NCBI GenBank assembly: GCA_029263275.1
Contig: JAJCXU010000073.1
Coordinates: forward strand, 1-14,113
DNA from: Ilumatobacter sp.
Lineage (GTDB): Bacteria; Actinomycetota; Acidimicrobiia; Acidimicrobiales; Ilumatobacteraceae
Reading direction: 5' to 3'
DNA length: 14,113 nucleotides
Positions 812 through 14,113 of this stretch are shown one piece after another (within the stretch, counting starts at the first letter, position 1; every line of letters begins with the position of its first letter). The translations under genes were made by a program, and so were the position numbers. The notes below the pieces were generated by a model. It did not search any database. It worked only from the letters and a program-made list of their open reading frames with translations, and was not told the DNA's origin.

Positions 812-2236
812 GTGCCAGCGGTGCAGTATCGGACGCGAGTGATGGTTGTGTACGTCCTCGCTCTGTTCATGACCGTGATGGACGGCACGATGGTCAACGT
901 CGCACTTCCGACGCTGGCCGAGGAGTTCGACGTTGCGTCCACCGACATCGAGTGGGTCGCAGTCGGGTACCTGCTCAGCCTTGCCGCCGTCATCCCCGTC
1001 GCCGGCTGGCTCGGCGACCGGTTCGGGTCCAAGCGGGTCTTCATCACCGCGCTGACCGTGTTCATCGCTGTGTCGCTGGGCTGCGGCGCCGCCCAGACGC
1101 TCGATCAGTTGGTGGCGCTGCGCGTTCTGCAGGGCATGGGTGGCGGACTCCTCACCCCGGTCGGCAGCGCAATGCTCTTCAGGGCGTACCCAATGGCCGA
1201 TCGGGCCAAGGCCGCGATCGGCGTGCTCAGCGTCGTCGTGATCGCCCCAGCTGTCGGCCCGGTGCTTGGCGGCGTGCTCGTCGATCAGACCTCCTGGCGG
1301 TGGATCTTCTTCATCAACGGACCCATGGGCGCCGCTGCGGTCCTGCTCGCAATACTGTGGCTCCGCTCCGACGACGGCACGGAGACCAGCGCGGCAGGCC
1401 GATTCGACGCTCCCGGATTTGTCCTGTCCGCGATTGCCGTGAGCGCGTTGATCTACACCTTGACAATCGGTCCGGAGCAGGGATGGGCATCGACGCGAGT
1501 GATCGGCTTCGCCGTCGTTGGCATCACTGCGGGCGTCGCGGCCATCACCGTCGAGCTTCGACGGCGCGATCCGATGCTCAAACTCCGGCTGCTGAGCGAC
1601 CGCCACTTCCGCACCATCAACATCGCCGCACCGTTCGTCTACGCCGGCTTCTTCGGGTGGATCATCGTCGTGCCGCTCTACATGCAAACACTGCGCGGCT
1701 TCTCCGCGACGTCGAGTGGTCTTGTCCAAGCACCACAGGCGATCGGCGTGTTTCTCGTGTCGAACCTGATCGGTCGGCGCTTGTACACCGCCATCGGGCC
1801 ACGCCGGTTGATGATCGTCGGTTCGCTCATCCACGCCGGGTTCACTGCGTCGTTCGCACTGGCCACTCTGACCACGCCCATCGGTGTCCTCGCCGCGCTG
1901 TCCTTCGGCCGCGGCGCGTCGGTTGGCATGGTGTTCATCTCGATCCAGACCGCCGTCTATGCCACGACGTCGTTGGCCGACACCGGACGCGCCACGTCGG
2001 AGTTCAACACCGTTCGCCAGATCGCCTACACGAGCGGCGTCGCCGTAGCGATCACGGTGATCGCCGCCCGCCTCTCCACCGTCGGCGGCGACGGTGCCGC
2101 AGCCGCCGATCGACTCGGCGCATACCAGTGGGGATTCCTCACCTGCGGTCTTCTGATCGTGCCCGCGGCAATCGGCAGTTGGTTCCTCCGCGACAACGAC
2201 GTCGCTGCGACCCGCGGCCTCGAGCCAGCTAGCTGA
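812..2236 (+). CDS. MFS transporter, DHA2 (EmrB/QacA) drug:H+ antiporter family
   Basis: This 474-residue integral membrane protein has the 14-helix layout of the DHA2 family, which exports drugs and other hydrophobic compounds in exchange for protons. Helix 1 carries the DHA2 signature MDGTMVNVALP (residues 23-33, with the membrane-embedded acid D24). Motif A, GWLGDRFGSKR, is at 65-75 after helix 2. RVLQGMGGG at 104-112 is motif B with its arginine. The antiporter motif C is the Gly/Pro-rich APAVGPVLGG around 145-154, followed by the family's SWRWIFFINGP at 161-171. Length is normal for the family. GTG 812 is used because it keeps the basic RTR before helix 1; ATG 842 is an alternative. It overlaps the end of the opposing metallophosphoesterase by 8 bases. 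The substrate cannot be inferred. Confidence 0.9.
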   Translation: MPAVQYRTRVMVVYVLALFMTVMDGTMVNVALPTLAEEFDVASTDIEWVAVGYLLSLAAVIPVAGWLGDRFGSKRVFITALTVFIAVSLGCGAAQTLDQLVALRVLQGMGGGLLTPVGSAMLFRAYPMADRAKAAIGVLSVVVIAPAVGPVLGGVLVDQTSWRWIFFINGPMGAAAVLLAILWLRSDDGTETSAAGRFDAPGFVLSAIAVSALIYTLTIGPEQGWASTRVIGFAVVGITAGVAAITVELRRRDPMLKLRLLSDRHFRTINIAAPFVYAGFFGWIIVVPLYMQTLRGFSATSSGLVQAPQAIGVFLVSNLIGRRLYTAIGPRRLMIVGSLIHAGFTASFALATLTTPIGVLAALSFGRGASVGMVFISIQTAVYATTSLADTGRATSEFNTVRQIAYTSGVAVAITVIAARLSTVGGDGAAAADRLGAYQWGFLTCGLLIVPAAIGSWFLRDNDVAATRGLEPAS

Positions 2237-3038
2237 TCTCGGACCAGGCCGGTGTGAACGGCGTCTCACCGGTGTCGACGTATCGGGTGTGCGCAACGAT
2301 GGCGTTGCCGTCAATGCGCCAAATGCGGTAGCCGGCCGGGTCACGAATGACCTGCAACGGACCGTCAGGGGCCAGGTCAAGGGCAACGTGTACCGCTGTG
2401 GAGATCCCGACCTCGGCGGGGACGCCCGCGACCATCGAACTCATCGGCCGGTGCATGTGTCCACAGATGATGCGATCGACGTGCACATCCGCGACGACGG
2501 AGACGAAACGGTCGAGACCGACGAACCCCGCAGCATCCATCCAGTCGATTCCCGTGGCGAACGGTGGGTGGTGCATCGCCAACAACGTGGGCCCCGCGTG
2601 CGGATTGGAGAGAGCGGTACGCAACCACTCCTCACGGCCCGGATCGAAGAGTGCGCCTGGCTCACCGGGGATCGTGGTGTCGAGACCGATGATGCGAACG
2701 CCCTCGACTTCGACGACCCAGCTCAGATGACCGTCGCCGCTCGGCCAGGGATGCTCAGGAAAGCACCGTCGCAGGCCGGCACGCGTGTCGTGATTTCCGG
2801 GAATCGGCAGGATCGGCACGTCGAGCGGAGCGATCACTTCGGCGAGCTGGTCGTATTCGGCATCGCTCCCCCACTGCGTCAGGTCACCCGTCGCGAGGAC
2901 TGCATCCATCGCCGGCGACTCATCGACGATGGCGGCAACGGCCGCTGCCGCGCGTCCGTTGTTGTCGACGTACAACACCTCGTCCGTCCCTTCAGCGACG
3001 ACATGCATGTCCGAGAGCTGCGCGAGATGCACCAACAT
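2229..3038 (-). CDS. Class III metallophosphoesterase, CpdA-like (cyclic-nucleotide phosphodiesterase family)
   Basis: This is a 269-residue cytosolic enzyme with all the calcineurin-like metal motifs in order: DMH (D10, H12), GDLTQWG (D52), GNHD (N82, H83), MHHPPF (H156/H157) and GHMHR (H194, H196). This set and the overall length match the CpdA/Icc group, which hydrolyses 3',5'-cAMP or related phosphodiesters at a two-metal centre. Actinobacterial members vary in substrate, so cAMP is only a suggestion. The frame extends upstream to 3101, but that start would overlap the divergent sulfurtransferase gene and adds a basic segment with no homology. ATG 3038 places the first beta strand (LVHLAQLSD) right after the start. 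It shares a 44-base intergenic region with the sulfurtransferase and converges on the MFS gene. Confidence 0.88.
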   Translation of the reverse strand: MLVHLAQLSDMHVVAEGTDEVLYVDNNGRAAAAVAAIVDESPAMDAVLATGDLTQWGSDAEYDQLAEVIAPLDVPILPIPGNHDTRAGLRRCFPEHPWPSGDGHLSWVVEVEGVRIIGLDTTIPGEPGALFDPGREEWLRTALSNPHAGPTLLAMHHPPFATGIDWMDAAGFVGLDRFVSVVADVHVDRIICGHMHRPMSSMVAGVPAEVGISTAVHVALDLAPDGPLQVIRDPAGYRIWRIDGNAIVAHTRYVDTGETPFTPAWSEIS

Positions 3039-3046
3039 GGTGCTGC

Positions 3047-3076
3047 TGACCGTAGTTCGCCGAATGCGAATACTGT
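3047..3076 (+). promoter_or_regulatory. Probable promoter for the sulfurtransferase gene, leaderless
   Basis: TACTGT at 3071-3076 fits the -10 consensus TANNNT and ends six bases before ATG 3083, so transcription would begin at the start codon itself. A weak -35-like CTGACC lies at 3046-3051, about 19 bases upstream. There is no Shine-Dalgarno sequence before this ATG. Confidence 0.4.
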
Positions 3077-3082
3077 CGATGC

Positions 3083-3910
3083 ATGGATCACTCGCTGCCA
3101 CCAGTCGTCTCCGCAGACTGGTTGACGGGCCAACGATCGATCGTCATCGTGCACGTCGGGACCACGATGTCCGGTCGGGACCCCGCTGCGGACTACGTCG
3201 ACCGTCGCTTGCCCGCGGCCCGCTACGTCTCACTCGACGATGACCTCGCGGCACCACCGGCCCCGATCGAGGGGCGCCATCCGCTGCCGACGCCGACGGC
3301 ATTCGCGGCGGTGCTGAACCGGCTCGGCGTCGACGCCAAGTCCAGCGTGGTCGCGTACGACGACAGAAACGGAGCATTCGCGGCACGACTGGTCTGGATG
3401 CTGCGCATCATCGGGCAGCCGGCCGCGCTGCTCGACGGGGGCATCGCCCTCTGGCCGGGACCATTCGAGTCGGGGCCGCCCGATCGCGCTGACGCGGGAC
3501 TCGACCGGCAGGCCGTGCCGTGGCCGGTTGAGGCGATCGCAAACGCTGACGACGTTGCCGCGCACATCGAGAGCGGCGGCGTGGTCATCGACTCTCGAGA
3601 TCCGCAGCGATTCGCCGGCGAGATTGAACCGATCGATGCCGTTGCCGGGCACAGTCCCGGTGCGATCAACCTGCCGTTCGTCGACAACATCGCTGACGGC
3701 CGCTGGCGCGACACTGCTGATCTCACCGCCAGGTTCGCCGTCGCAGCGAACGACCCTCAGGCGATCGTCTACTGCGGGTCAGGAGTCACGGCATGCCACA
3801 ACGCTCTGGCGATCGAGGCCGCGGGCCAACCGCTCCCGCGCGTCTTCGTCGGTTCCTGGTCGGGATGGTCGACCGACCCTGAGCGCCCGGTCGCGACTGA
3901 TGCTCGATGA
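3083..3910 (+). CDS. sseA: Two-domain rhodanese sulfurtransferase (thiosulfate / 3-mercaptopyruvate type)
   Basis: This 275-residue protein has two rhodanese domains. The N-terminal, non-catalytic one covers roughly 10-125 and shows the family's AYDDRNGAFAARLVWMLR and LLDGG segments. The C-terminal one covers about 150-270, with VIDSRDPQRFAGEIEP, the linker AGHSPGAINLPF, and the active-site loop CGSGVTAC, in which C231 carries the persulfide. A loop reading CGSGVTA is typical of mercaptopyruvate/thiosulfate sulfurtransferases of the SseA type, which move sulfane sulfur from a donor to cyanide or thiols. The terminal GSWSGWSTDPERPV is also characteristic. Start ATG 3083 has a TANNNT box at exactly -12 to -7, suggesting a leaderless transcript. 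The stop overlaps the start of the VanZ-like gene by four bases (ATGA), so the two are probably co-translated. The choice between thiosulfate and mercaptopyruvate is not settled. Confidence 0.88.
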   Translation: MDHSLPPVVSADWLTGQRSIVIVHVGTTMSGRDPAADYVDRRLPAARYVSLDDDLAAPPAPIEGRHPLPTPTAFAAVLNRLGVDAKSSVVAYDDRNGAFAARLVWMLRIIGQPAALLDGGIALWPGPFESGPPDRADAGLDRQAVPWPVEAIANADDVAAHIESGGVVIDSRDPQRFAGEIEPIDAVAGHSPGAINLPFVDNIADGRWRDTADLTARFAVAANDPQAIVYCGSGVTACHNALAIEAAGQPLPRVFVGSWSGWSTDPERPVATDAR

Positions 3911-4392
3911 CGCTCAGGCATCGGCCGAGCCTGGGCGTGCGCAGCGCCATCGCGCTCGTCGCGTTCTGCCTCGTCGTTGCCAATGCCATGGTGCTGCTGT
4001 CCGATCGAGCGCCCGGGGTGCTGCGGTCCGTCTTCGGTGACTTCGCTCGCCGAGTCAGCCAGCGGATCGACGCAGGCGGCAGCGCGGAGGCCGCTCTCGG
4101 TGCACGCGACCTCGGTGGCGACTCGATCGTCCACTTCGGCCTCTGGGCGGTCGCCATGGCGGTCGTCGGCTTCGCTGTGTGGTCGTGGGCCGGGCTGCTC
4201 GTCGCCTCGTTCACGGTTGCAGCAACGAGCGTCGCCCTCGAGATAGCGCAGGGCCGTTACACGTCGTCGCGCGCCGTTGAGGCCAGCGACGCTGCGTTCA
4301 ACCTCCTCGGTGTCACCGTCGGCGCAGGCGTGGCCGCCGTCGCGTATCTGAGCGTCGAAGCCGTGGGTCGGCTGATCAGCCCACCGGACTGA
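3907..4392 (+). CDS. VanZ-like family membrane protein
   Basis: This 161-residue protein has about four membrane segments (roughly 12-32, 76-95, 97-113, 132-151). It carries the conserved VanZ-like pattern: D72 and H76 in DSIVHFGLW, E112 and Q115 in LEIAQG, SR at 121-122, and D128/N132/G135 in SDAAFNLLGV. VanZ in glycopeptide-resistance clusters gives low-level teicoplanin resistance, but most VanZ-like proteins are stand-alone and of unknown function, so resistance should not be assumed. The start overlaps the sulfurtransferase stop (ATGA), so expression is probably coupled. Its 3' end overlaps the opposing EamA gene by 17 bases. The family is fairly secure because the D-H, E-Q and D-N-G residues are all present; the role is unknown. 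Confidence 0.75.
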   Translation: MTLRHRPSLGVRSAIALVAFCLVVANAMVLLSDRAPGVLRSVFGDFARRVSQRIDAGGSAEAALGARDLGGDSIVHFGLWAVAMAVVGFAVWSWAGLLVASFTVAATSVALEIAQGRYTSSRAVEASDAAFNLLGVTVGAGVAAVAYLSVEAVGRLISPPD

Positions 4393-5302
4393 GCAACGGT
4401 TCAGCGTCAGGCTCGGTCTGACGAACGAGCCACACCACCGAGGTCAGGATGACGGCGCCACCGAACAGCGTGGCGATGCCTGGTGTCTCGCCCGGCCAGA
4501 TCCACACCCAGAGCGGCGCCAACACCACTTCGGTCATCAGCAGCAGCGGGATCCGCGCCGCGGCGACCGAGCGATGTCCGAGGTTGAACATCGGAAGGCC
4601 GATGCCGAGCGACATGCCACCGGAGATCGATGCCATCGCGACATCGCGAGCGGAGATGCCGATGCCGCCATCTCCCACCAGCGCGGCGGCTCCGGCGCCG
4701 ACCGTCAACATCACGCTGGCGATCAGCGCGGGCACGACAGGGTCGATCGTGGTCATCGAGCGCATCAGCACGCTGTAACAGCCAACCGCAACGGGAATGA
4801 TCGCAGCGAACAGCAGTCCGAAACCGGACCCCACGCTCAGGCTCGCTCCGACGGTGATCCCCACGCCGGTGGCCGTGAGCCCGATGGCCACGTAGGTGGA
4901 ACGCGCCACCTTCTCCCGGAGGAACAACCACCCGAAGACGGCGGCGAACACCGGCGAGGCCGCGAGCAACGACAACGTCGTCGCGGCGGTCGTTCCTGCA
5001 AGCGCCAGGATGTACAACATCGACGTCGCCGCGAGGACGACACTTGCAGCCCACGTCGTCCGTGTGATCCCCGCGAAGCTGACGGGGCGACGACCACGCC
5101 GCACAACAATCAGCAGGAGCATCGCGAGTGCGGTCGACAAGCCTCGATACGTGAGGAACTGGAAGTCGGTGGCCCCTTCGACGCCCGCGTAGGCGATCGC
5201 GGTGAAGCTGAATGCCACGCCCGCACCGGCGACGAGTACTGCTCCTTGTCGTTCGGTCAGTGCCCCCTCACCCGCGAATGCGTGTGCGACAGCCCGGAAC
5301 AT
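4376..5302 (-). CDS. EamA-family (DMT superfamily) transporter
   Basis: This 308-residue integral membrane protein is made of two repeats of five helices, the normal EamA layout of ten. The first repeat ends with the typical TTAATTLSLLAASPVFAAVF and the LREKV segment around residue 130, and the second with RIPLLLMTEVVLAPLWVW followed by a Gly-rich last helix. The conserved glutamate in the second-repeat TEVVLAP segment is present. Family members export amino acids, nucleotides or other metabolites; the substrate cannot be read from sequence. ATG 5302 is supported by a TAGGCT box at exactly -12 to -7. The N-terminal 18 residues are cytoplasmic-like. It converges on the VanZ-like gene and diverges from the NERD helicase. 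Confidence 0.85.
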   Translation of the reverse strand: MFRAVAHAFAGEGALTERQGAVLVAGAGVAFSFTAIAYAGVEGATDFQFLTYRGLSTALAMLLLIVVRRGRRPVSFAGITRTTWAASVVLAATSMLYILALAGTTAATTLSLLAASPVFAAVFGWLFLREKVARSTYVAIGLTATGVGITVGASLSVGSGFGLLFAAIIPVAVGCYSVLMRSMTTIDPVVPALIASVMLTVGAGAAALVGDGGIGISARDVAMASISGGMSLGIGLPMFNLGHRSVAAARIPLLLMTEVVLAPLWVWIWPGETPGIATLFGGAVILTSVVWLVRQTEPDAEPLLSPVG

Positions 5303-5308
5303 CCACAG

Positions 5309-5314
5309 AGCCTA
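5309..5314 (-). promoter_or_regulatory. -10 box of the EamA transporter gene, leaderless start
   Basis: Read on the minus strand, TAGGCT fits TANNNT and occupies positions -12 to -7 relative to ATG 5302, so the transcript would start at or next to the ATG. No Shine-Dalgarno sequence is visible in front of this ATG. Confidence 0.4.
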
Positions 5315-5336
5315 GGTATGGCTGCGACATCGATCC

Positions 5337-5353
5337 GGGTGGAATTGCCACCC
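5337..5353. promoter_or_regulatory. Perfect 6-bp inverted repeat between divergent genes
   Basis: GGGTGG and CCACCC are separated by AATTG. The element lies 34 bases upstream of the EamA start and 73 bases upstream of the NERD-helicase start, a position suited to an operator acting on either gene. A chance hairpin in GC-rich DNA is also possible. Confidence 0.3.
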
Positions 5354-5426
5354 TGAAGGGCGCCTCGATTCCGCCACTCGTCTTCGTTTCCTCAAGATCG
5401 AACGAAATCGCGTCGATAACAGGCAT

Positions 5427-7583
5427 ATGGCCCTGCTTCGCCCACCGCTGCACCAATTCGACCAGTTGACGCAGCCACTCAACGAGTCCGAAATGGCCGC
5501 TGCTCAGGCGCTGGCCCAACTCGACGACGGCTGGACTGTGTATGTGCAGCCCAAAGTGGCGCTCGATCGGCCCGATTTCGTCGTCGTCCACGAACTGCTT
5601 GGCGTGTGCGTCATCGAAGTCCGCGACTGGAACCCCGAGGCTGCCCGGCCAGCACACGACGACCCGCGATTCATCGCCGCCCGCACGCGATCGGTCATCT
5701 TCGACCAGTTCTTCGCCTTGCCGAGCGACGGCACCGAAGTCACCGAGGCAGTCCGCGCTGCCGTCGTCCTGCCGCGTTGCACCCAAGAGCAGACCGGACA
5801 ACTGCTCGGCGCATCGGAGGCCGAAGGCGGCGAACGACACGTCGAGGTCTGGGGTGGCGACGGGCTTCGCGATCAGCTCGACCGACTCGTTCGAGGCACC
5901 GGCTGTGCCCATCCTCGCCCCGAGTCGATCACACGGCTTCGCGATCACCTGGTCCCATCAGAGCTCCCATCAGTCCGGCCTGCGCCGTTCCCACGAAGTG
6001 CGGGCGCATTCGAGATCGAAGTCAACAAGCAGGGCGGGTCCGTGCGTCGAGCGCGCGGCGGCGCCGGCAGTGGGAAGTCCTTCGGCCTCGCGGCTCGCGC
6101 GGCCCACCTCGCGGCGCAAGGCAAGCAGGTGTTGGTGCTGTCGTTCAACGTCACGCTGGCCAATCATCTGCGGACAATGGTCACCGATCGATGCGCCGAG
6201 TACGGCACCAATCCGACGCGCGTGACGTGCACCAACTTCCACTCGTTGTGTACCCGAATCGTGCAGGACGCCGCACGTGTCGGCATCGAGCCGCCCGCTC
6301 CTCGCGGCGTCCGCTGGACCACAGCGATCGTCAAGAAGGCAGAAGGCGTGCTGAGCGCTGGGATTGTGCCGCGCTACGACGCTGTCCTCGTCGATGAAGG
6401 GCAGGATTTCGAAGCGGGATGGTGGCACCTCCTTCGCGAGCATCTCATCGTTCCTGGCGGCGAGATGTTGCTCGTCGCCGATCCGACGCAGGATCTCTAC
6501 GACCGAACCACGTGGCACAACGACGAAGACATGCGTGAGGCTGGCTTTGACGGTGACTGGCTCGAACTCGACGGTTCATACCGACTGCCAGCAGATCTCG
6601 CCAAACATGCCGCCGACTTCGCCGCACATCGTGTCGGCGGCCAGCCGATCATCACCATTGCTCCGGAAGACCTGGCCGAGGTCAGCGGTGCATCACATGG
6701 GTCTCTGCGGCTGTGGCAGAACGTCGACCGTGTCGGCGACCTCGGCACCGCTGTCGGGCGTGAAGTGGTCAGGTTGCTCAAACAGCACCCGATCCTCCAA
6801 CCGGCAGACGTCGCGTTCATCTGCGAATACCACCACGACGGTGTCGCCGCGGTGCGCGAAATCGAAGCAGCCGGGTACCCGGTCCATCACATCTTCAGTC
6901 GCGATCCTGACGACGCCCGACGGCGCCGCAAGTACCGGTTCTCACCACAGGCCGATGCGATCAAGGGCAGCACGGTCCACAGTTTCAAGGGCTGGCAGAC
7001 CTCGGTGCTCGTCATGGGAATCGGTCTCGAGTCCAAGTCGAAGCGGATGGCGTATGTCGCGATGACCCGCGTCCAGAACCACCCCACTCGCCCAGCCGTG
7101 CTGTCAGTGGTCAATGCCGACAAGCACCTCGACGACTTCGGCGCCACCTTCGCCGGCACGCCCGACATCCCAGCATCATCTGCACAGCCCCCGGCTGCGC
7201 AACCACAACCGCAACCACAACCACAACCACAACCGGAACCAGCCCCGGCGCCAGCGACTTCGGCACTAGCCCCGGCACCGGTCGTTGGGACGACTGCAGT
7301 TGCAGAACCTGCGCAGCAAGCACCAGATGCACCGGACACGGCGTTGCCCGAAGTGATCTCGATTCCCCCGTTGCCCTCGACACCGCTGATCGCGCCGACA
7401 CCCAACCCGCCAATGCCGTCCGGCCCGCCGCGGGACATGGCGCCGCCGGCAGCAGCGCCCGCACCAGCTGCATCGACGGCACTGCCGCCCCCACCGCCGC
7501 CCACGCCAGCACCGACAGCCGGGTCAGCACCCCTGGCTCCGCCGACCGTTTCCTGGGACGCGCCAACGGCAGTCACCGACTGA
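5427..7583 (+). CDS. NERD domain fused to superfamily I (UvrD-like) DNA helicase, with proline-rich tail
   Basis: This is a 718-residue fusion. Residues about 20-110 form a NERD domain, with the acidic RPDFVVV (D50) and VIEVRDW (E64), where the usual lysine is arginine (R66). A superfamily I helicase core follows: Walker A GGAGSGKS (211-218), motif Ia-like VLSFNVTLANHLR, TNFHSLC (269-275), Walker B LVDEGQDF (321-328), motif III LLVADPTQDLY (348-358), motif IV GSYRLP (383-388), motif V STVHSFKGWQ (515-524) and motif VI YVAMTR (543-548). Such proteins are predicted to unwind DNA and possibly cut it, but few have been tested. Residues 580-718 are low complexity, mostly Pro, Ala, Gln and Thr, including a QP run at 592-602; this tail is unusual for the family. 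The Gfo/Idh/MocA gene follows after 27 bases. No good ribosome binding site is seen before ATG 5427. Confidence 0.88.
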   Translation: MALLRPPLHQFDQLTQPLNESEMAAAQALAQLDDGWTVYVQPKVALDRPDFVVVHELLGVCVIEVRDWNPEAARPAHDDPRFIAARTRSVIFDQFFALPSDGTEVTEAVRAAVVLPRCTQEQTGQLLGASEAEGGERHVEVWGGDGLRDQLDRLVRGTGCAHPRPESITRLRDHLVPSELPSVRPAPFPRSAGAFEIEVNKQGGSVRRARGGAGSGKSFGLAARAAHLAAQGKQVLVLSFNVTLANHLRTMVTDRCAEYGTNPTRVTCTNFHSLCTRIVQDAARVGIEPPAPRGVRWTTAIVKKAEGVLSAGIVPRYDAVLVDEGQDFEAGWWHLLREHLIVPGGEMLLVADPTQDLYDRTTWHNDEDMREAGFDGDWLELDGSYRLPADLAKHAADFAAHRVGGQPIITIAPEDLAEVSGASHGSLRLWQNVDRVGDLGTAVGREVVRLLKQHPILQPADVAFICEYHHDGVAAVREIEAAGYPVHHIFSRDPDDARRRRKYRFSPQADAIKGSTVHSFKGWQTSVLVMGIGLESKSKRMAYVAMTRVQNHPTRPAVLSVVNADKHLDDFGATFAGTPDIPASSAQPPAAQPQPQPQPQPQPEPAPAPATSALAPAPVVGTTAVAEPAQQAPDAPDTALPEVISIPPLPSTPLIAPTPNPPMPSGPPRDMAPPAAAPAPAASTALPPPPPPTPAPTAGSAPLAPPTVSWDAPTAVTD
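7200..7235 (+). repeat. Hexanucleotide microsatellite CAACCR x6 inside the helicase gene
   Basis: Six uninterrupted copies of CAACCA or CAACCG encode six Gln-Pro pairs in the helicase tail. A six-base unit keeps frame whatever the copy number, so tail length could vary without breaking the gene. Confidence 0.9.
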
Positions 7584-7610
7584 CCACCGCGTTCGGGCGA
7601 GACTGCTCGA

Positions 7611-8573
7611 ATGACACACCGGATTGGGATCATCGGCCTCGGCACCGTCGGGGCTCGATTCGTCGAACAGTTCAATCACCACGCCGACTTCGAGCTCGTT
7701 GCGGCCTGGGACCCCGACCCCGTTGCCTGCGCGGCTCATCGCGCCGACGTCGACATCAGTGACGACGCTGCTGGCGTCATCGCTGCCGCTGACGCGGTGT
7801 ACATCGCGGTACCGCCGCTCTTTCACGCGGGCTACGTCGAGCAGTGCGTTCGCGCCGGAGTTGCCATCTTCTGCGAGAAACCACTGGGCATCAACGTCGA
7901 CGAGAGTCGTCGACTGGTGGCCTTGGTCGAATCCAGCGGATTGCCCGCTGGCGTCAACTTCGTGTTCAGCTCTGCACCTGCGGCTGTCGATCTGCAACGA
8001 CGGGTTGGCGATGGCGAGATCGGCCAGATCGTGCGCGGCGACCTTCGGCTGCACTTCGCCGAGTGGCCGCGGGCCTGGCACGCCAAGGCGCAATGGCTGC
8101 GCCTGCGCGACCAGGGCGGTTGGATCCGCGAGGTCGCCTCACACTTCTTGTTCCTCGCCACTCGCGTACTGGGCCCGCTTGCGATCGACTCCTCAGCGGT
8201 GACGTACCCCGACGGTGCGGATGCGGAGCTCTGCGAGGTCGATGTCCAAGCTCGGCTGTCGTCGGCGACGGCACCGCTCGTACTTGCTGGCACGAGCGAG
8301 GGCGTCGGCCCCGACATCAACGATCTGACGATTCGCGGCACCACCGGTTCATTGCGCGTGTGGGATTGGTATCGCCTGCAACACAGCGACGGCGGCGAGT
8401 GGACCGACAAGATCGGCACCGACCGGGCCGAGCAGGCCGCGGCGGCCTACGGCGGCCAACTCGACGAACTGGCTCACCTGCTCGCCGGCGAGCCCTCGAC
8501 GATCGCGTCCTTCGCCGAGGCACTCGCCGTGCAAGAACTCGTCGAGCAGCTGCTTGGCAACGTGTCGACCTGA
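7611..8573 (+). CDS. Gfo/Idh/MocA-family NAD(P)-dependent oxidoreductase
   Basis: This 320-residue cytosolic enzyme has an N-terminal Rossmann fold with the dinucleotide motif GIIGLGTVGARF (residues 6-17) and an acidic residue after the second strand (WDPD). The family signature CEKPLG is at 88-93, where K90 is the usual catalytic lysine. The C-terminal part carries DQGGWIREVASHFLFLA (167-183), which supplies the catalytic histidine (H178). Family members oxidise or reduce sugars, inositols, biliverdin and related carbonyl compounds; the exact substrate is not visible. Length is slightly short for the family (usually 330-390). It starts 27 bases after the helicase stop on the same strand and may be co-transcribed, although no functional link to the helicase is obvious. 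Confidence 0.87.
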   Translation: MTHRIGIIGLGTVGARFVEQFNHHADFELVAAWDPDPVACAAHRADVDISDDAAGVIAAADAVYIAVPPLFHAGYVEQCVRAGVAIFCEKPLGINVDESRRLVALVESSGLPAGVNFVFSSAPAAVDLQRRVGDGEIGQIVRGDLRLHFAEWPRAWHAKAQWLRLRDQGGWIREVASHFLFLATRVLGPLAIDSSAVTYPDGADAELCEVDVQARLSSATAPLVLAGTSEGVGPDINDLTIRGTTGSLRVWDWYRLQHSDGGEWTDKIGTDRAEQAAAAYGGQLDELAHLLAGEPSTIASFAEALAVQELVEQLLGNVST

Positions 8574-8614
8574 ATCAGCGCTGTGCCCCGCTGGACAACT
8601 CCGGTCGGGCCTGG

Positions 8615-8671
8615 TCAGGCCGTCGGCGATCTCATGAGGTAGTTGCGCACCCTCTGCGCAAGGACCTCATG
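8615..8671 (-). pseudogene. Possible C-terminal remnant of a second YunG-like gene
   Basis: The minus strand reads HEVLAQRVRNYLMRSPTA followed by a stop, resembling the end of the intact YunG-family gene downstream, HHVLAERVRRNLVTAAS followed by a stop (8 of the first 12 residues identical). Upstream on the same frame there is no recognisable YunG core, so at most a fragment remains. The overlap with a perfect-arm hairpin means the resemblance could partly be chance. Low confidence. Confidence 0.25.
8633..8671. terminator. Long imperfect hairpin (8 + 7 bp stems, 5-base loop)
   Basis: The left arm CATGAGGT-AG-TTGCGCA and right arm TGCGCAA-GG-ACCTCATG pair over 15 of 17 positions, with a 2x2 internal bulge (AG opposite GG) and loop CCCTC. 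It starts 59 bases after the stop of the Gfo/Idh/MocA gene and could terminate its transcript, but no T-tract follows on either strand. It may instead be a mobile-element or recombination structure. Confidence 0.45.
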
Positions 8672-8738
8672 CAATCGACCGAACGGACAGCGAACCCCAC
8701 TCCGGAACGCGGTCCATTCGGAGGGCAGCTCTGGAGCA

Positions 8739-8849
8739 GGTGATATTGGCACTGTTGCTGAGTGACGCCCGATGTCGCCGGATCCAGAGCGGGCCCAAGC
8801 CCCACCGGCAGATATGGACATGCGCCCCTGATCCGGCGATATGGGACAG
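8739..8849 (-). mobile_element. Repeated ATATC-containing units, possible IS21-type end remnant
   Basis: On the minus strand three same-orientation copies occur: CTGTCCCATATCGCCGGATC (8849-8830), ATGTCCATATCTGCCGG (8821-8805) and CAGTGCCAATATCACC (8754-8739). The outermost copy begins with TGT at 8848. IS21-family elements commonly begin with TGT and carry several repeats near each end. A related inverted copy (ATGTCGCCGGATC, 8772-8784) pairs with 8830-8842 at 12 of 13 positions. No transposase gene is present in the window, so this could only be a solo end or relic. It could also be a set of regulator-binding sites. Confidence 0.3.
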
Positions 8850-8942
8850 GTCCGGCCGCGCGAGAAGTGCCGATCAGGAGCGGGCTGGGCGATGTGAGGC
8901 GTCCGTCGTTTCTGAGCGGTCTCGACGTCCATTGTCGCGGGC

Positions 8943-9320
8943 ATGGCGATCGATGTAGGTGTTCTCGAAGCGGTCATTCGGTCGTGTTGGATGGCGGACA
9001 CGCGCGATGATCCTGATGAGTGGTCTGCCTCGAATCCCTCCCGCGGTCAGTGTGCTGTCACGGCAACGGTCGTTCAGGACTATCTCGGAGGAACGTTGCT
9101 GATCGCCCCGGTGCTGGAGAACGGCAAACCTGTGGAAGCCCACTGCTGGAATGTGCTGCCCGGAGGGGAGCATCTCGATCTGACCGCAGATCAGTTTGGC
9201 GGGCCGTTTCTTCTCGGCGATGCGGAGGAGCGAGAGCCGGTCGTTGATCACACCGGGGTGAATCGTCATCACGTACTCGCTGAGAGAGTCCGGCGCAACC
9301 TCGTGACCGCAGCCAGCTGA
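8943..9320 (+). CDS. YunG-family protein of unknown function
   Basis: This 125-residue protein matches the YunG family (Bacillus subtilis YunG and actinobacterial relatives). It has SCWMADT near the start, PSRGQCAVTATVVQDYLGG (32-50), EAHCWNVLPGG (65-75) and HLDLTADQF (77-85). The biochemical role of the family is not known to me. The order Cys37, then His67 in H-x-W, then Asp79 in D-x-T resembles the transglutaminase-like Cys/His/Asp triad, which is an inference rather than an annotation. ATG 8943 is the only start that keeps the N-terminal helix of the family. A hairpin lies 7 bases after the stop, consistent with termination between this gene and the converging VOC gene. It is cytosolic, with no signal peptide or membrane segment. 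Confidence 0.75.
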   Translation: MAIDVGVLEAVIRSCWMADTRDDPDEWSASNPSRGQCAVTATVVQDYLGGTLLIAPVLENGKPVEAHCWNVLPGGEHLDLTADQFGGPFLLGDAEEREPVVDHTGVNRHHVLAERVRRNLVTAAS

Positions 9321-9327
9321 TCCATTC

Positions 9328-9345
9328 GCTCAAGCGTTCTTGAGC
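9328..9345. terminator. Hairpin between converging yunG-like and VOC genes
   Basis: GCTCAAG and CTTGAGC are perfect 7-bp arms around a CGTT loop, 7 bases after the YunG-like stop. The symmetric stem could stop transcripts from both sides, although there is no T-tract. Its right half is also the left end of the weakest copy of the bipartite repeat. Confidence 0.5.
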
Positions 9346-9380
9346 TGGTAGCCGCGCCGATACGTGCCGAGCCTGAGCGG
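9334..9380. repeat. Bipartite 47-base repeat, copy 3 (degenerate)
   Basis: GCGTTCTTG at 9334-9342 matches the left block ACGTTCTCG at 7 of 9. TGCCGAGCCTGAGCGG at 9365-9380 matches the right block TGCCGTTTCCGGACGG at 10 of 16. The two blocks start 31 bases apart, the same offset as in the two better copies. It lies beyond the 3' end of the first VOC gene. Confidence 0.4.
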
Positions 9381-9417
9381 CGGGCGGTGCGGCTGCGGGC
9401 GCTGTGACATGCGTACC

Positions 9418-9804
9418 TCAGAGCTGGTGGAACGGCGCTGGTTCGCTGGGAATCACGTGAGCCATCACGCAGAACTCGTTGCCGTCCGGATCGGCCATCA
9501 CGACCCATGAACTGTCTGTCGGGCCGAAGTCGGTTCGAGTCGCTCCCAGCGATTCAAGTCGAGCCACCTCTTCGTCTCGGGTCGTGCCCTGTGTCGGGCA
9601 AACATCGAAGTGGATGCGGTTCTTGTGAAGCTTTGTGTCGCTGGATCGGAGGAAGAGCATTGTCGGCGCTGACGAGGCTCCGTTAATCGCAACGTAGGTG
9701 TCGTCCGCGTCGGCGACGCGATAGCCGAGCGCTTCGCACCAGAATGCGGCGACCTGTTCTGGGTCGCTGGAATCGATCACAATGTCGCGGATGCGAACGG
9801 TCAT
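9418..9804 (-). CDS. VOC-superfamily (glyoxalase-like) protein
   Basis: This 128-residue single-domain protein has the beta-alpha-beta-beta-beta layout of the vicinal oxygen chelate superfamily. It opens with TVRIRDIVIDSSDPEQVAAFWCEALGYRV, matching the glyoxalase-like subgroup 'DxxDPxxlAxFWxxlLGyxv', and closes with SWVVMADPDGNEFCVM, the family's 'DPEGNEFCv' C-terminal strand. Members include isomerases, dioxygenases and antibiotic-binding proteins; many in this subgroup are of unknown role, and the usual glyoxalase metal ligands are not clearly all present. ATG 9804 starts right at the first strand. It is bounded by copies of a bipartite repeat (9334-9380 and 9835-9881) and lies in tandem with another VOC gene of a different subgroup (9936-10319). 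Confidence 0.88.
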   Translation of the reverse strand: MTVRIRDIVIDSSDPEQVAAFWCEALGYRVADADDTYVAINGASSAPTMLFLRSSDTKLHKNRIHFDVCPTQGTTRDEEVARLESLGATRTDFGPTDSSWVVMADPDGNEFCVMAHVIPSEPAPFHQL

Positions 9805-9834
9805 GTATGCAATCGTTGCACATGCTCAAGCCGC

Positions 9835-9881
9835 ACGTTCTCGAGCGGGGGTACCCCATCGGATGTGCCGTTTCCGGACGG
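9835..9881. repeat. Bipartite 47-base repeat, copy 1
   Basis: The left block ACGTTCTCG (9835-9843) and right block TGCCGTTTCCGGACGG (9866-9881) are both identical to the copy at 10444-10490, at the same 31-base offset. The 22 bases between the blocks differ and here contain the palindrome GGGGTACCCC (9848-9857). It lies 31 to 77 bases upstream of the first VOC gene. Confidence 0.75.
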
Positions 9882-9935
9882 GTTGACAGCCACGCCTGGT
9901 CCGATGTTCTGAGCGACGCTGGCCCCGAGACGTAC

Positions 9936-10319
9936 CTACGACTCGGAGTGTTTCGCTACTGCCGTCCAGAGGCCGAAGGAGACGCCGCTCGGGTCTGTGA
10001 TCCTTGCGAACCACCGGTCGTCTCCGCCCAGCGCTGTCCGCACGCGTTCGACGATGGCCCCGAGTTTGGCTGCGCGTTGGAGAGCGTGCTCCAGATCGTC
10101 CACCGCCACGTAGAGCCGCACACCGGCGGCGGGCGTTGATCTGCCGTGGCTGCGTTGCAATCCGCCGATGCCGTTCGCTCCTTCGCGAACAATCCAGTAG
10201 TCCGCACCCAGTTCGGTGCTTTCGAACGCGGGCTCAAATGTCCAACCCCACATCGCAGCATGGAAGTCCTGGAAGGCCTTCGGGTTCGGAGTCTCGACCT
10301 CCCACCACACGATTGCCAT
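9936..10319 (-). CDS. VOC-superfamily protein, second copy (distinct subgroup)
   Basis: This 127-residue protein starts MAIVWWEVETPNPKAFQDFHAAMWGWTF, the pattern of VOC proteins of the 'glyoxalase/bleomycin resistance' type, where a FYxxLFGWxF-like segment follows the first strand. The second half repeats the fold with VRLYVAVDDLEHALQRAAKLGA and ITDPSGVSFGLW, again typical. The function is unknown; such proteins often bind or modify small molecules. ATG 10319 is chosen because translation upstream of it (from a GTG at 10457) shows no domain and would run into the repeat at 10444-10490. It is not a close copy of the neighbouring VOC protein, so the pair is not a recent duplication, although both are bounded by the same bipartite repeat. 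Confidence 0.85.
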   Translation of the reverse strand: MAIVWWEVETPNPKAFQDFHAAMWGWTFEPAFESTELGADYWIVREGANGIGGLQRSHGRSTPAAGVRLYVAVDDLEHALQRAAKLGAIVERVRTALGGDDRWFARITDPSGVSFGLWTAVAKHSES

Positions 10320-10443
10320 GTCCAAGAGTGTGGCAGACGGACCCAAGCCCGTGAATCGATCGTGCAGCACAGATCGCCCGGCGCTCATCAGCCAAACGGA
10401 ACTCGCCCACGCCAACGCCTCGAAGGGAACGCCCGCCGATCGA

Positions 10444-10490
10444 ACGTTCTCGCGCACCTGACCGCGCGCTCATTTGCCGTTTCCGGACGG
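10444..10490. repeat. Bipartite 47-base repeat, copy 2
   Basis: ACGTTCTCG (10444-10452) and TGCCGTTTCCGGACGG (10475-10490) are identical to copy 1 with the same 31-base offset; the 22-base centre is different. It lies 125 bases upstream of the second VOC gene and 57 bases beyond the 3' end of the M24-family gene. The rest of 10320-10546 holds nothing else I can identify. Confidence 0.75.
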
Positions 10491-10546
10491 TCGGGAAACT
10501 TGTCGTGGCCGTGGATATCGGGCGGCCTGGACGGATGGTCTCGGTG

Positions 10547-11782
10547 TCACGTTGAAAGGCGCTCGTCGAACCGGTAGGTCGACATTCTCTCAACGCCGGC
10601 GTCGAGGATCAAGAACTGGTCTTCGAGCTTGACACCTTCGCCTGATTCGTCGGACCCGATGTAGCTCTCGAGGCAGATGATCATGCCCGGCTCGACGCAC
10701 CCGTCGAGTGGGTAGTCGACTCCCGGTTCGTCGTGTGGGATGTTCGGCCATTCACCCGACATTCCGAGGCCGTGGCCGACGCAGTAGTAGCGGCTCGCCT
10801 GATGGTCGTCCGGCACTTTCCACGCTCGACGCGCCAGCTCTGCGAACTCGATGCCTGGCCGCAGCAACGAAGTGTTCCACTCCAGCTGCTCCTTCGCTCT
10901 GCCGTAGAGCAGTCGTTGCTGGGGAGTGGCCGTCGTGTCGCCGCAGAGGAAGGTCCGGGAAAAATCGACGCAGTAGTTCTCGTAGCCGTTTGCGTCGGTG
11001 TCGAGTGCGAGGAGTTCGCCTGCCCGTAGCCGCCGCTGGCCTGCTTCCTGGAAGTACGGATACGTGTTCGGTCCGGACTGGAACAGTCTCGTGACGGTGT
11101 GTTGGCCGTCCTTGGCCATCAGCTCGAAGTGAAAGTGCGCCCACGCCTCGGACTCGGTCATTCCTGGTTCGGCCGCATTTTCGAGTGTCTCGACGGCTAC
11201 TTCTACTCGGCGCATCGCTTCGCGCAGGTACGGGACCTCGATGGGCAGCTTGATCGAACGCGCCGGAGAGAGAACGGTGTCAGCGGGAACGAGGGCCAGG
11301 CCGGCGGCGCGGAGTTCATCAGTGGCGGAGAACGGGAACCGGTCGACAGCGAGGCGCCGTGCACCATGGTGGCGCAGCTCGGCTCCGATCTCGCGGGCGA
11401 GTTCCTTCGACGCGACAGTTACTTCACCACCGGAGCTGACGATGTCGAGCCCGACGGCGAGCCGGATCTCGTTGATCGTGGACAAGCCCTCTGCGAGATG
11501 CTCACAGCCGCGGTATTCGAAGAGGATCGCCGGCCCGCCGTCGACGACGAGGAGGTACCGGGCTGGCGTTCGCGCGCAGAAGATCTGCATGTTCATTGCC
11601 CCGCTGACGTAGAAGATGTCGTTCGGGTCGCAAATCAGCAGCGCATCGACGTCCGCACGAGCGAGGTGCCTACGGACGTGTTCCATCCGCGCCCCGTAGA
11701 GCTTGTCGGCGTGTTCATCGAGGCCGTCCGCGACTTCCCCGCTTCCCGGTGATCGTTGGCGGTGCATTGGCTCGGGCTCCAT
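10547..11782 (-). CDS. M24-family enzyme closely resembling DMSP lyase DddP
   Basis: This 411-residue 'pita-bread' M24 (creatinase/aminopeptidase P) protein has an N-terminal creatinase-like domain (to about 175) and a metal-binding C-terminal domain. The six ligands D261, D263, D273, H337, E372 and E387 have exactly the spacing I recall for DddP (295, 297, 307, 371, 406, 421), and Y332 falls at DddP Tyr366. Further DddP-like segments are NMQ at 64-66, TRLFQSGPNTYPYFQEAG, GEWP, and VKLEDQFLI. DddP cleaves dimethylsulfoniopropionate to acrylate and dimethyl sulfide. The residue at DddP Asp377 is glycine (G343), so activity is uncertain; a DddP-related hydrolase or peptidase is the alternative. 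The N-terminus is about 35 residues shorter than DddP. ATG 11782 is used; ATG 11767 has a better GGAG upstream. The frame runs to 12022, but that part is not protein-like. Confidence 0.8.
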   Translation of the reverse strand: MEPEPMHRQRSPGSGEVADGLDEHADKLYGARMEHVRRHLARADVDALLICDPNDIFYVSGAMNMQIFCARTPARYLLVVDGGPAILFEYRGCEHLAEGLSTINEIRLAVGLDIVSSGGEVTVASKELAREIGAELRHHGARRLAVDRFPFSATDELRAAGLALVPADTVLSPARSIKLPIEVPYLREAMRRVEVAVETLENAAEPGMTESEAWAHFHFELMAKDGQHTVTRLFQSGPNTYPYFQEAGQRRLRAGELLALDTDANGYENYCVDFSRTFLCGDTTATPQQRLLYGRAKEQLEWNTSLLRPGIEFAELARRAWKVPDDHQASRYYCVGHGLGMSGEWPNIPHDEPGVDYPLDGCVEPGMIICLESYIGSDESGEGVKLEDQFLILDAGVERMSTYRFDERLST

Positions 11783-11817
11783 ACGTTCCACTCTTACATC
11801 TGGAGGAAGAACGTGAG

Positions 11818-11832
11818 GTGACTCCAAGTCAC
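11818..11832. promoter_or_regulatory. Operator-like palindrome upstream of the M24-family gene
   Basis: GTGACT and AGTCAC are perfect 6-bp arms separated by CCA, centred about 43 bases upstream of ATG 11782. The size and position suit a dimeric regulator site controlling the DddP-like gene. The regulator is not known. Confidence 0.4.
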
Positions 11833-11886
11833 GAGAGCGCAGTAATCCGGAGTGTCGCGCCCGCAGACCACTCGATATTGGGCCTG

Positions 11887-11913
11887 GGCGCCGCGAGCGA
11901 TAGTCGCGGCGCC
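11887..11913. terminator. Perfect 10-bp hairpin, no adjacent gene end
   Basis: GGCGCCGCGA and TCGCGGCGCC pair fully around the 7-base loop GCGATAG. No T-tract follows and no recognisable gene ends here, so calling it a terminator is only the nearest available label. It could also be a structured RNA element or protein-binding site. Confidence 0.4.
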
Positions 11914-12093
11914 TCAACGGCCACGAACCCGTCCGGCATCCGGCGGTGAAGATCGCATCTGCGAGGCCGCTCGTCGAGTGCGCAATATGGAGTGGGTAGC
12001 CGAGCAAGGATGTGCCGATCAAGAGTGCAAAGTCGCGTGGCCGAACGTCGGCGATAGCGGGCTGTTGGTCGCATCTCTGTGTCGGCCTCGCAA

Positions 12094-12099
12094 TACGTT
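12094..12099 (+). promoter_or_regulatory. -10 box of the small membrane protein gene, leaderless GTG start
   Basis: TACGTT fits TANNNT at exactly -12 to -7 before GTG 12106. This decides the start in favour of GTG 12106 over GTG 12079 or ATG 12124. No convincing -35 is seen. Confidence 0.35.
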
Positions 12100-12105
12100 G
12101 GAGCG

Positions 12106-12468
12106 GTGAACGTTGGCGAACGCATGCGGCCGAGCTTGCGGCGGAACATCCCGGTGCTGGCCTTTTGCCTCGTCGGCGGGCTGTTCGGGGTGCTCGTCGA
12201 TGATGTTCCTGCGATTGGGCGCGTGTTCGGGCTCATGTTCGCCGCGGCACTCATCCCGTTCTTGTTGCTGCTCCTCACGACCTGGTTTCGAATTTTGCAA
12301 CGGCGTCGTGCCCACCTCGGTATTGGGCCGGGCGCGCTCATTTCGCGTCGAGGAGTCAACCTTCAGGCTGCCGCCCTGGCGGTGGGATACTTCGGGAAGT
12401 CGACTGCGGTCGAACTTCGGTCCGCGGCTGCACGCCGGACAGTGTCGCTTGCCACCGAGCCGACGTGA
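12106..12468 (+). CDS. Small two-helix membrane protein of unknown function
   Basis: This 120-residue protein has a basic N-terminus (ERMRPSLRR), then two hydrophobic segments (IPVLAFCLVGGLFGVLV and VFGLMFAAALIPFLLLLLTTWF) joined by a short acidic loop, and a basic cytoplasmic tail of about 60 residues (RILQRRRAH... ending SLATEPT). I recognise no family. The two-helix hairpin with positive charges on both ends predicts both termini inside. GTG 12106 is favoured by a -10 box at the leaderless position; ATG 12124 would remove six residues. It diverges from the DddP-like gene across a 323-base gap and converges on the LuxR-type regulator. It is probably a real gene, given the clean membrane pattern and positive-inside charge. 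Confidence 0.55.
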   Translation: MNVGERMRPSLRRNIPVLAFCLVGGLFGVLVDDVPAIGRVFGLMFAAALIPFLLLLLTTWFRILQRRRAHLGIGPGALISRRGVNLQAAALAVGYFGKSTAVELRSAAARRTVSLATEPT

Positions 12469-12532
12469 CCATTCCGACGCAACGTCCTTGTCCGCAGCGA
12501 ATCCTGCCCGGCCATCGAGGTTCTGAGCGACG

Positions 12533-14113
12533 TCAGAGCAGTCCGTGTTGCCGTGCAGCGTGGACCGCTGGCTTGCGGCCGTCCGCGCCCAACTTGCGGT
12601 AGATGGCCTTGCAATGCGTCTTCACCGTGTTGAGCGAGACGAACAACTCACTCGCGATCTCGCGCTGGGAGAGCTGCGAGGGCAGATAGCGCAGGACGGC
12701 GAGCTCGCGTTCGGTGATCTCCTCGACTAGTTCGGTCGATGGTTCAGCTCGCACGCCGAGCCTGTGTCGGGCTTCGAGGCGGGCGAGCGTTGCGCCGACG
12801 ATGCCGGCGTCGGGGCACCGGTCGACGGTCTGGCGAGCTTCACGGAGCAGCTGTGGTCCCGCCGGGTCGTCGGCTTCGCAGGCTGTGTCGCCGATGAGGG
12901 CGAGGACGTACCCCAGGGTGAAGGGCTCAGGTGCTCGCCGAGCGAGTTCGAGCGCGTGCTCCGCCGTGGCGGACCGTTGTTGCGGATCGGAGGTGGTGCA
13001 CGCCAGCACGGCGTGCGACATGGAGAGCTGCGGTGATTCGGCGACGCCGTGGAGCCGGGCGTGTTCCAAGCTCGCCGCCGCGTGGTCAGCTGCCGACGAT
13101 CGGTTCCCCAACTCCATCTCGACGACAGCAGCGAACCCGGGCGCGATCGTCAGCGCATAGTCCGACGGCTCGGACGCGCCGAGTTCGCGGGCGATCGCGA
13201 TGTACCGCAGCGCTTCGTCGAACATCCCGGCCCACGTGTAGGCGGCGACCAGCCCGATCGCTTGGGTCGACTCGGTCGGGTGATCCATGCGCCGGGCGAT
13301 CGAGATCGCGTCACCGAGGAGACCTTCGGCGAGGTGCACCATGATTCCGAGCGACGCGGTGAGGTTGGCGTCGGTTTCGTCGTCGCACTCGACGGCGATG
13401 TCGTAGTAGTGACGAGAAGCCGCGAAGCGGCCCGTCGCGAGGTTGATCCAACCGCGCACGAGCGCACTTGGCGAGTGGCGTTCGGGGAGGTCGCCGAGCT
13501 GGTCGAGCAAACGGAGCACGGTGAAGATCTGTCCGCCGTTGAGCAGCGCAGTGGCGTGGATCGAGATCAGATCGCCGGCCGCGACGAGATCGCCTCCCGC
13601 GATGTAGTGCTCGATCGCCGTGTACATGTCGCCGCGATCGTGATGCCACGATGCGGCGGCGAGGTGCAGTTCGGGAAGACGATCGGGGATCTCACGGTCG
13701 GCCTCGAGACGAAGAAGATCACGCAGGAGGTGGTGATACCGGAACGTGGTGCCCGTCCGGTCGAGCCCGATGAACAACTGGTTGGCGGCAGCGGTACGCG
13801 TCAGCCACTGGCTGCCGTCGGTCGAACCGGTCACGGCGTCGATCAGCGGACCGGTGAGCTGATCGAGGATCGACGTTTCGATCAGACGTCGGCGCTCGTC
13901 GGGTGGGATCGACGCGAGGAGTTCGTCGGTGAGGTAGTCGACGACGAGCTGGTCGTCGCCGCGGAAGCCGGCGATGAATCGGGACGTGTCGTCGACGCCT
14001 GCGAGCGACAGTCCTGCGAGGACGAGCCCGGCCGCCCACCCCTCGGTTCGGTCGCACAACGTGAGCAGCGCCTCGCGATCCAGAGACGAGGTCCCGAGCA
14101 GGCCAGCCGCCTC
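12533..14113 (-). CDS. LuxR-family regulator, LAL/MalT type, N-terminus beyond window
   Basis: The frame is open to the right edge, so about 526 C-terminal residues are visible. The start and the AAA+/STAND ATPase with its Walker motifs lie outside; a TTG at 14059 lies in frame but inside conserved sequence. The visible part begins with the end of the NB-ARC-like region (TEGWAAGLVLAGLSLAG, LFIGLDRTGTTFRYHHLLRDLL), the classic LAL signature. It continues with some 330 residues of helical TPR-like repeats, rich in Ala and Leu, that typically bind an inducer. It ends with a GerE/LuxR helix-turn-helix in the last 66 residues (ITERELAVLRYL, SQREIASELFVSLNTVKTHC, KAIYRKLG). Whole LAL proteins are usually about 850-950 residues. 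They activate transcription when bound to ligand and ATP. No target can be named from the context. Confidence 0.9.
   Translation of the reverse strand, partial: EAAGLLGTSSLDREALLTLCDRTEGWAAGLVLAGLSLAGVDDTSRFIAGFRGDDQLVVDYLTDELLASIPPDERRRLIETSILDQLTGPLIDAVTGSTDGSQWLTRTAAANQLFIGLDRTGTTFRYHHLLRDLLRLEADREIPDRLPELHLAAASWHHDRGDMYTAIEHYIAGGDLVAAGDLISIHATALLNGGQIFTVLRLLDQLGDLPERHSPSALVRGWINLATGRFAASRHYYDIAVECDDETDANLTASLGIMVHLAEGLLGDAISIARRMDHPTESTQAIGLVAAYTWAGMFDEALRYIAIARELGASEPSDYALTIAPGFAAVVEMELGNRSSAADHAAASLEHARLHGVAESPQLSMSHAVLACTTSDPQQRSATAEHALELARRAPEPFTLGYVLALIGDTACEADDPAGPQLLREARQTVDRCPDAGIVGATLARLEARHRLGVRAEPSTELVEEITERELAVLRYLPSQLSQREIASELFVSLNTVKTHCKAIYRKLGADGRKPAVHAARQHGLL

Follow-up and report, generated by a model that had tools for sequence, protein, structure and literature searches.

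A glycine-type relative of the lyase DddP from Ilumatobacter sp. belongs to a separate group of M24 metalloenzymes

Is a protein that keeps the whole metal site of DddP, a dimethylsulfoniopropionate (DMSP) lyase, but has glycine at the place of a proposed catalytic aspartate, still a DMSP lyase? The question is raised by a stretch of 14,113 nucleotides from Ilumatobacter sp. (contig JAJCXU010000073.1 of assembly GCA_029263275.1, positions 1 to 14,113), hereafter the window, which carries an M24 metalloenzyme gene at 10547..11782. The initial annotation left two possibilities, that an actinobacterial enzyme cleaves DMSP by an altered mechanism, or that it is a sister enzyme from which DddP evolved. 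The protein is not DddP: it scores below the curated DddP cut-off, it has no Asp377, and a clade test separates it from DddP. Our reading, to which we give a probability of roughly 0.4, is that it is a member of an uncharacterised "Gly343 core group", sister to the clade that holds DddP, and hydrolyses a small amide, a dipeptide, or a betaine-like compound.

Metal site and the residue at the place of Asp377

The gene is read on the minus strand, which the initial annotation had not stated; this frame is clean, while translation of the same interval on the plus strand contains four stops. The 411-codon frame from the ATG at 11782 encodes Peptidase_M24 and Creatinase_N domains (109.3 and 32.9 bits, both above the Pfam cut-offs). 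The closest solved relatives in a sequence search are RlDddP (4s01, 4rzy, and 4s00) and RdDddP (4b28) at ~30% identity, and the match to 4s01/4rzy is far above chance (E 1.7e-60). DddP is also the closest solved relative of the predicted fold.

In the alignment to 4s01/4rzy, D261 (11000..11002), D263 (10994..10996), D273 (10964..10966), H337 (10772..10774), E372 (10667..10669), and E387 (10622..10624) correspond to the DddP metal ligands D295, D297, D307, H371, E406, and E421 (all codons here and below are on the minus strand). The constant offset of 34 and the motifs quoted in the initial annotation are thus correct, as is its pairing of Y332 (10787..10789) with Tyr366; this residue is Tyr in 94/99 aligned DddP-like proteins. 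G343 (10754..10756), the glycine of SGEWP, takes the place of Asp377, again as had been noticed. RlDddP has been solved with mutations at both places, according to the PDB titles (4s01, D377N; 4s00, Y366A).

The six-ligand set should not be regarded as diagnostic of DddP, since it is kept in 96 of the 99 DddP-like M24 proteins. The three exceptions (L096, L128, and L130; L numbers denote loci) have Gly instead of the Asp ligand D263, which is D297 in DddP.

PMC4108388 favours Asp377 as the base in RdDddP, names Tyr366 as the alternative, and describes both as invariant in DddP lyases; its Discussion proposes a tyrosine as the base in the cupin lyase DddQ. In a later proposal for DddP, described in the review PMC5395565, the substrate is held at its carboxylate by a moving iron and at its sulfur by a tryptophan and a tyrosine, and an aspartate takes the alpha proton.

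Gly343 throughout a family

A homologue search over 5.8 billion proteins yields 743 matches, the best 120 of which are listed. Gly343 is found in all 121 sequences formed by the query and these best 120, in a motif of the type GHGLGMSGEWP. Among 36 diverse members that are 56–69% identical to the query, 79 columns are invariant, including W214, R232, Q235, Y243, F244, Y332, Y333, and N347, as well as the six metal ligands. Gly343 is therefore the rule of a family, and not a lesion or a quirk of the window gene. Homologues among the listed matches carry "Xaa-Pro" names in their sources. Literature searches in one open-access library gave no paper with a description of the Gly343 group in its title or the beginning of its abstract.

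The group is present, over 38 loci, in, among others, Ilumatobacter, Leisingera, Yoonia, Lentibacter, a Comamonadaceae strain, Arenicellales, Candidatus Thioglobus, Kiloniellales, and Anaerolineae. None of nine congeners searched (72–99% complete) has a match above 42% identity. After L023 and L024, the nearest rows in the tree described below are from Proteobacteria and Anaerolineae, and the other acidimicrobia form a separate branch. These relationships suggest that the window gene was horizontally transferred.

Tree, scores, and boundary with DddP

The DddP equivalog model NF043017 gives the window protein 256.8 bits (E 3.4e-76; 256.1 bits in the genome search), far from its cut-off of 600. 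For the tree, 104 proteins (99 of them DddP-like) were aligned after a duplicate (L001), partial or broken genes (L007, L013, L017, L056, and L057), and sequences shorter than 360 amino acids had been dropped; removal of 16 near-duplicates left 88 rows for maximum likelihood. Residue 343 in the 99 DddP-like proteins is Gly in 50, Asp in 44, and Asn in 5. The Gly rows make up one side of a branch with bootstrap 85 and SH-aLRT (Shimodaira–Hasegawa-like approximate likelihood ratio test) 88, and a single change at the site suffices in 94% of 200 bootstrap trees. The Asp/Asn rows, minus the long-branch L142, form the sister clade (97/96), deep inside which DddP is placed, though the root depends on a long outgroup branch. 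Constraining DddP (8 rows) and core Gly (31 rows) to one clade against the 49 other rows is rejected by the approximately unbiased (AU) test (p-AU 9.45e-52). The protein is not firmly placed among prolidases or creatinases.

The Gly group thus has as its sister a larger Asp/Asn clade, of which DddP forms a single branch. Given this position, nothing in the tree points to an origin of DddP from the Gly group; "sister enzyme" is an apt term, but the words "from which DddP evolved" go beyond the tree. A DddP with one odd mutation was also considered for the window gene, and is ruled out by the 121/121 glycines together with the separation in the tree and AU test.

The window protein is 32% identical to canonical DddP. 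Against the DddP proteins L069–L071 (890–903 bits, though not a ratified set), all Gly rows stay at or below 36.8% identity, and an identity filter of this kind would therefore exclude the window's group. Twenty-two other rows pass 40% and 70% against these proteins, and three of them are Asn343 rows that have neither Asp377 nor Tyr366. Asn at the place of Asp377 and loss of Tyr366 occur together in five rows (L014, L015, L094, L095, and L123), three of which are more than 40% identical to L069–L071.

When the genomes of 17 Gly-type loci are searched with the DddP model, 56 places are found. Nine places, in eight genomes, score at least 600 bits, and the rest lie from 522 bits downward, the Gly-type copies of the window's group at 244–279 bits. 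DddP over the cut-off and the Gly type therefore coexist in 8/17 genomes, all 17 having been picked for carrying the Gly type. Often, then, a DddP over the cut-off shares its genome with a Gly-type copy and with further DddP-like paralogues.

A protein outside the tree should be noted here. On plasmid pAMI1 of Paracoccus aminophilus (L158, 8875-10167), Gly343 is combined with His71, Met332, and Pro333, which suggests that Gly343 may have arisen more than once. The pair Gly343 and Arg71, considered as a mark of single origin, is weakened by this protein. Its gene is followed by ABC transporter genes for a binding protein, two permeases, and two ATPases.

In the window's own class, a DddP-like gene (E ≤1e-40) is found in 25/296 genomes, in none of them over the DddP cut-off. 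Residues were read in the ten best loci of this search (L203–L212). The 13 DddP-like proteins in these loci score 442–475 bits with the DddP model, have Asp at the place of 377 as well as Tyr366, Trp243, and His71, and are 53–66% identical to the nearest rows beside DddP in the tree. They are better candidates for an actinobacterial DMSP lyase than the window gene.

Pocket residues and comparison with peptidases

The two sides of the tree differ at further positions. The Asp/Asn rows (n = 49) have His71 in 45, Trp243 in all 49, and Tyr333 in none, whereas the Gly rows (n = 50) have Arg71 in 39, His71 in none, Tyr243 in 43, Tyr333 in 46, and Asn347 in 43. The corresponding codons in the window are at 11570..11572 for R71, in the N-terminal domain, 11054..11056 for Y243, and 10784..10786 for Y333. 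These changes map to one or two branches of the tree and so are marks of clades, not independent proof of contact with a substrate. A sulfonium-binding tryptophan is reported for DddP in PMC5395565; the Trp at alignment position 243 of the Asp/Asn rows, which may or may not be the residue meant there, is Tyr in the window protein.

In the alignment to prolidase 1wy2, G343 faces the His of "HEWP" and Y243 the His of "LPH"; the latter position is also His in the outgroup rows L021, L098, and L143. Y333 corresponds to the third prolidase His by spacing only, being four residues before the ligand His, where the alignment program leaves a gap; RlDddP has Gly there. The accessory active-site histidines of Escherichia coli aminopeptidase P are His243, His350, and His361, and PDB entries of Ala mutants exist. 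The Gly group thus lacks two (by spacing, three) accessory peptidase histidines, and also the Asp of DddP.

Peptidase models score the window protein far below their cut-offs (PepQ, 53.5 bits against 630; PRK09795, 50.6 against 393; PRK10879, 39.5 against 465), and so do the NCBIfam models of the ectoine hydrolase DoeA (30.3 bits against 575 and 28.4 against 613). Creatinase has a metal-free site without the ligands; the window protein has all six.

Coding start and gene neighborhood

The true start of the gene is uncertain. Compared with a 93%-identical copy in a metagenome-assembled genome (MAG) of Ilumatobacter (L023), 20/51 bases differ over residues 1–17, spread over the codon positions as 8/6/6. 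After residue 17, 74/1182 bases differ, and 56 of them are at third positions. A coding signature is thus seen only from about residue 17–18 (~11734). The enzyme domain is unaffected by this uncertainty.

Two VOC (Glyoxalase_6) genes lie downstream on the same strand (9421-9804 and 9939-10457, both minus), and a small plus-strand ORF (open reading frame) and a LuxR-type regulator gene lie upstream. In a blastn comparison with L023, only 10489-11944 is conserved, and the VOC genes are not kept beside that copy. The neighbors in the window therefore carry no conserved message, and the idea of deducing the substrate from the VOC genes was dropped. Farther away, 5427-7583 on the plus strand encodes a UvrD/REP-type helicase of 718 amino acids with a long C-terminal tail rich in Pro, Ala, and Gln.

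In L053 (Leisingera) and L034 (Lentibacter), a gene for a peptide-type ABC binding protein follows the Gly-type gene within 40 bp, and then genes of the mandelate-racemase family and the Ldh dehydrogenase family (11222-15107 in L053). L038 has peptide-type ABC genes upstream, together with a gene that resembles L-threonate dehydrogenase (301 bits, cut-off 350), and its ORF arrangement recurs in L055. An S15 peptidase-type gene lies ~12 bp upstream in L040. A YbaK-type tRNA-editing-like gene is located upstream, at ~60 bp to 2.6 kb, in six actinobacterial MAGs (L041, L044, L047, L050, L051, and L058; by Pfam in L044 only).

These surroundings were compared with 40 control stretches (443 genes) from 10 genomes, part of the counted loci being from other genomes. 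A peptide transporter is found within 7 kb at 7/37 core Gly loci, which include close relatives, against 2/40 control stretches (p 0.06), and is adjacent at 3/37 loci against 2/443 control genes.

Gene context across the wider superfamily

Some relatives with Asp343 are found in another setting. In one Paraburkholderia and three Rhizobium plasmid records, such genes follow genes for a Rieske oxygenase and a hybrid-cluster reductase. On a Caballeronia plasmid, an Asp-type gene follows the hybrid-cluster reductase gene, with a Rieske gene nearby on the other strand. Asp343 was read in L061, L064, L159, L160, and L162 (rhizobia and Burkholderiaceae). The Asp-type gene of Rhizobium TAL182 is also near genes for a proline/glycine betaine transporter and a 4-hydroxyproline epimerase. 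In Rhizobium johnstonii (L160, 13235-16285), near neighbors of the Asp-type M24 operon are two electron transfer flavoprotein genes and two that are annotated as DMSP lyases.

When genes of the MttB, Rieske, and dimethylglycine-dehydrogenase-like families are pooled within 7 kb, they occur at 3/9 DddP loci over the cut-off, 11/34 other Asp/Asn loci, 1/5 deeper Gly loci, and 1/37 core Gly loci, with no significant enrichment over the 7/40 controls. A superfamily-wide tie to methylamine or betaine genes at this distance was accordingly dropped. Rieske genes alone are found at 8/34 other Asp/Asn loci against 1/40 controls (p 0.007, uncorrected). Adjacency of any of the three families on the same strand within 400 bp is seen at 3/9 DddP loci over the cut-off (p 0.001) and 5/34 other Asp/Asn loci (p 0.002), against 9/443 control genes, though L126, L129, and L131 share a subclade and L104 is closely related to L105. 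The same adjacency is absent from the five deeper Gly loci (reference plasmids not counted) and from the 37 core Gly loci.

Genes for DddP over the cut-off (640–681 bits) stand directly behind an MttB-family methyltransferase gene in L104 and L105, and behind a dimethylglycine-dehydrogenase-like gene in L102. This placement suggests that some proteins called DddP may act on N-methyl compounds.

Proposed function and alternatives

The predicted fold, the six ligands, the lack of Asp377, the missing accessory histidines, and the common presence of Tyr243, Tyr333, Gly343, Asn347, and mostly Arg71 in the group are observed, whereas the hydrolytic function is our proposal. Two bound metal ions would activate either water or the carboxylate of the substrate, and a C–N bond of a small imported molecule (an amide, a dipeptide, or a betaine-like compound) would be hydrolysed. 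Tyr332/Tyr333 and Arg71 would position the substrate in the places taken by Asp and His in DddP, and Gly343 may give space for a larger group than DddP accepts. Physiological DMSP lyase activity is not expected of the protein.

Several observations weigh against this proposal. The His residues of M24B peptidases are replaced, contrary to an ordinary peptidase. Nothing in the window shows the substrate; only 10489-11944 is shared with L023. The link to peptide transporters is weak, and also circular because each of the six transporter queries was taken from a locus in the group being counted, two of the queries even from scoring loci. An amine oxidase gene lies ~9 bp upstream in L042, and the deeper Gly343 genes on pSymA of S. 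meliloti and on a Shinella plasmid are beside genes for an MttB-family methyltransferase, an isochorismatase-family hydrolase, and a betaine ABC transporter. These betaine-type operons and the amine oxidase suggest that the substrate could be a betaine or an amine. A further difficulty is that the protein might be a lyase on an N-onium or S-onium substrate, with Tyr333 or Tyr332 as the base for Asp377, comparable to DddQ. A tyrosine base is discussed as an alternative for RdDddP and proposed for DddQ in PMC4108388, Tyr332 is present in 50/50 and Tyr333 in 46/50 Gly343 rows, and the operons of the deeper relatives would fit such a substrate. However, the Asp rows conserve Tyr332 just as well (44/44), so that it is no replacement for Asp377, four deeper Gly343 rows have T, T, F, and L instead of Tyr333, and none of the 37 core loci has an adjacent MttB, Rieske, or dimethylglycine-dehydrogenase-like gene. 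We consider a lyase of this kind unlikely.

An ordinary Xaa-Pro dipeptidase or aminopeptidase, as the automatic names of homologues imply, is a reading that we rate lower again. The two Pfam domains agree with the names, and some relatives have peptide-type ABC and S15 neighbors. But Y243, G343, and, by spacing, Y333 occupy the places of the prolidase histidines, the peptidase models score far under their cut-offs, and RlDddP itself is inactive on Val-Pro according to PMC5395565. The actinobacterial DMSP lyase with a changed mechanism, suggested by the initial annotation, has little in its favor and is improbable. DddP is indeed the closest solved relative, and several marine actinobacteria in which no ddd gene is known release dimethyl sulfide (DMS) from DMSP, as reported in PMC6309047; those named there, however, belong to other genera. 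Moreover, the residue described as invariant in DddP lyases (PMC4108388) is Gly in every one of the 121 sequences, identity to canonical DddP is low, the tree and AU test separate the groups, the score is below the cut-off, the same class has the better candidates described above, and the Gly type is retained beside a DddP over the cut-off in nearly half of the 17 genomes. A catalytically dead M24 fold serving in binding is the least probable reading, since the invariance of the six ligands and of 79 columns in all across 36 members is what one sees in a working active site. Tentatively, we prefer hydrolysis, with a small amide, a dipeptide, or a betaine-like compound as the substrate.

Significance and comparison with known systems

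In a broader picture, which we regard as doubtful, DddP would be a single twig of a large superfamily of M24 enzymes that act on small molecules, namely methylated-onium compounds and related ones. The residue at the site of Asp377 would then serve as a chemistry switch: His would mark the peptidases, Asp would mark DddP and its kin, Asn one clade, and Gly the window's clade. The Gly clade would represent a new activity on an abundant osmolyte or peptide in many marine alphaproteobacteria, gammaproteobacteria, Anaerolineae, and acidimicrobia. The natural series of His, Asp, Asn, and Gly at one site offers a test of how a peptidase fold becomes a lyase. The limits of the DddP family affect estimates of DMS production, since ~65% of the ddd genes counted in an ocean survey were dddP (PMC10686828). 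The tree and the residue comparison presented here help to set this boundary, and the window gene should not be counted as a DMS producer without a test.

Compared with DddP (RlDddP 4rzy/4s00/4s01, RdDddP 4b28; NF043017), the window protein has G343 for Asp377, differs at residues 71, 243, 333, and 347, and belongs to a separate clade. The Rieske-linked genes, named "Xaa-Pro peptidase family protein", share the superfamily, the six ligands, and Tyr332 with it, but have Asp343. The deeper Gly343 genes of S. meliloti pSymA and Shinella share Arg71 and the Gly at the place of Asp377, but have Trp243, Thr333, and Phe347. M24B prolidases and aminopeptidase P (1wy2, 5cdl, and 1a16) have the fold and the canonical metal ligands in common with the window protein at ~18–24% identity in the fold comparison, whereas their His residues are Tyr243, Gly343, and, by spacing, Tyr333 in the window protein.
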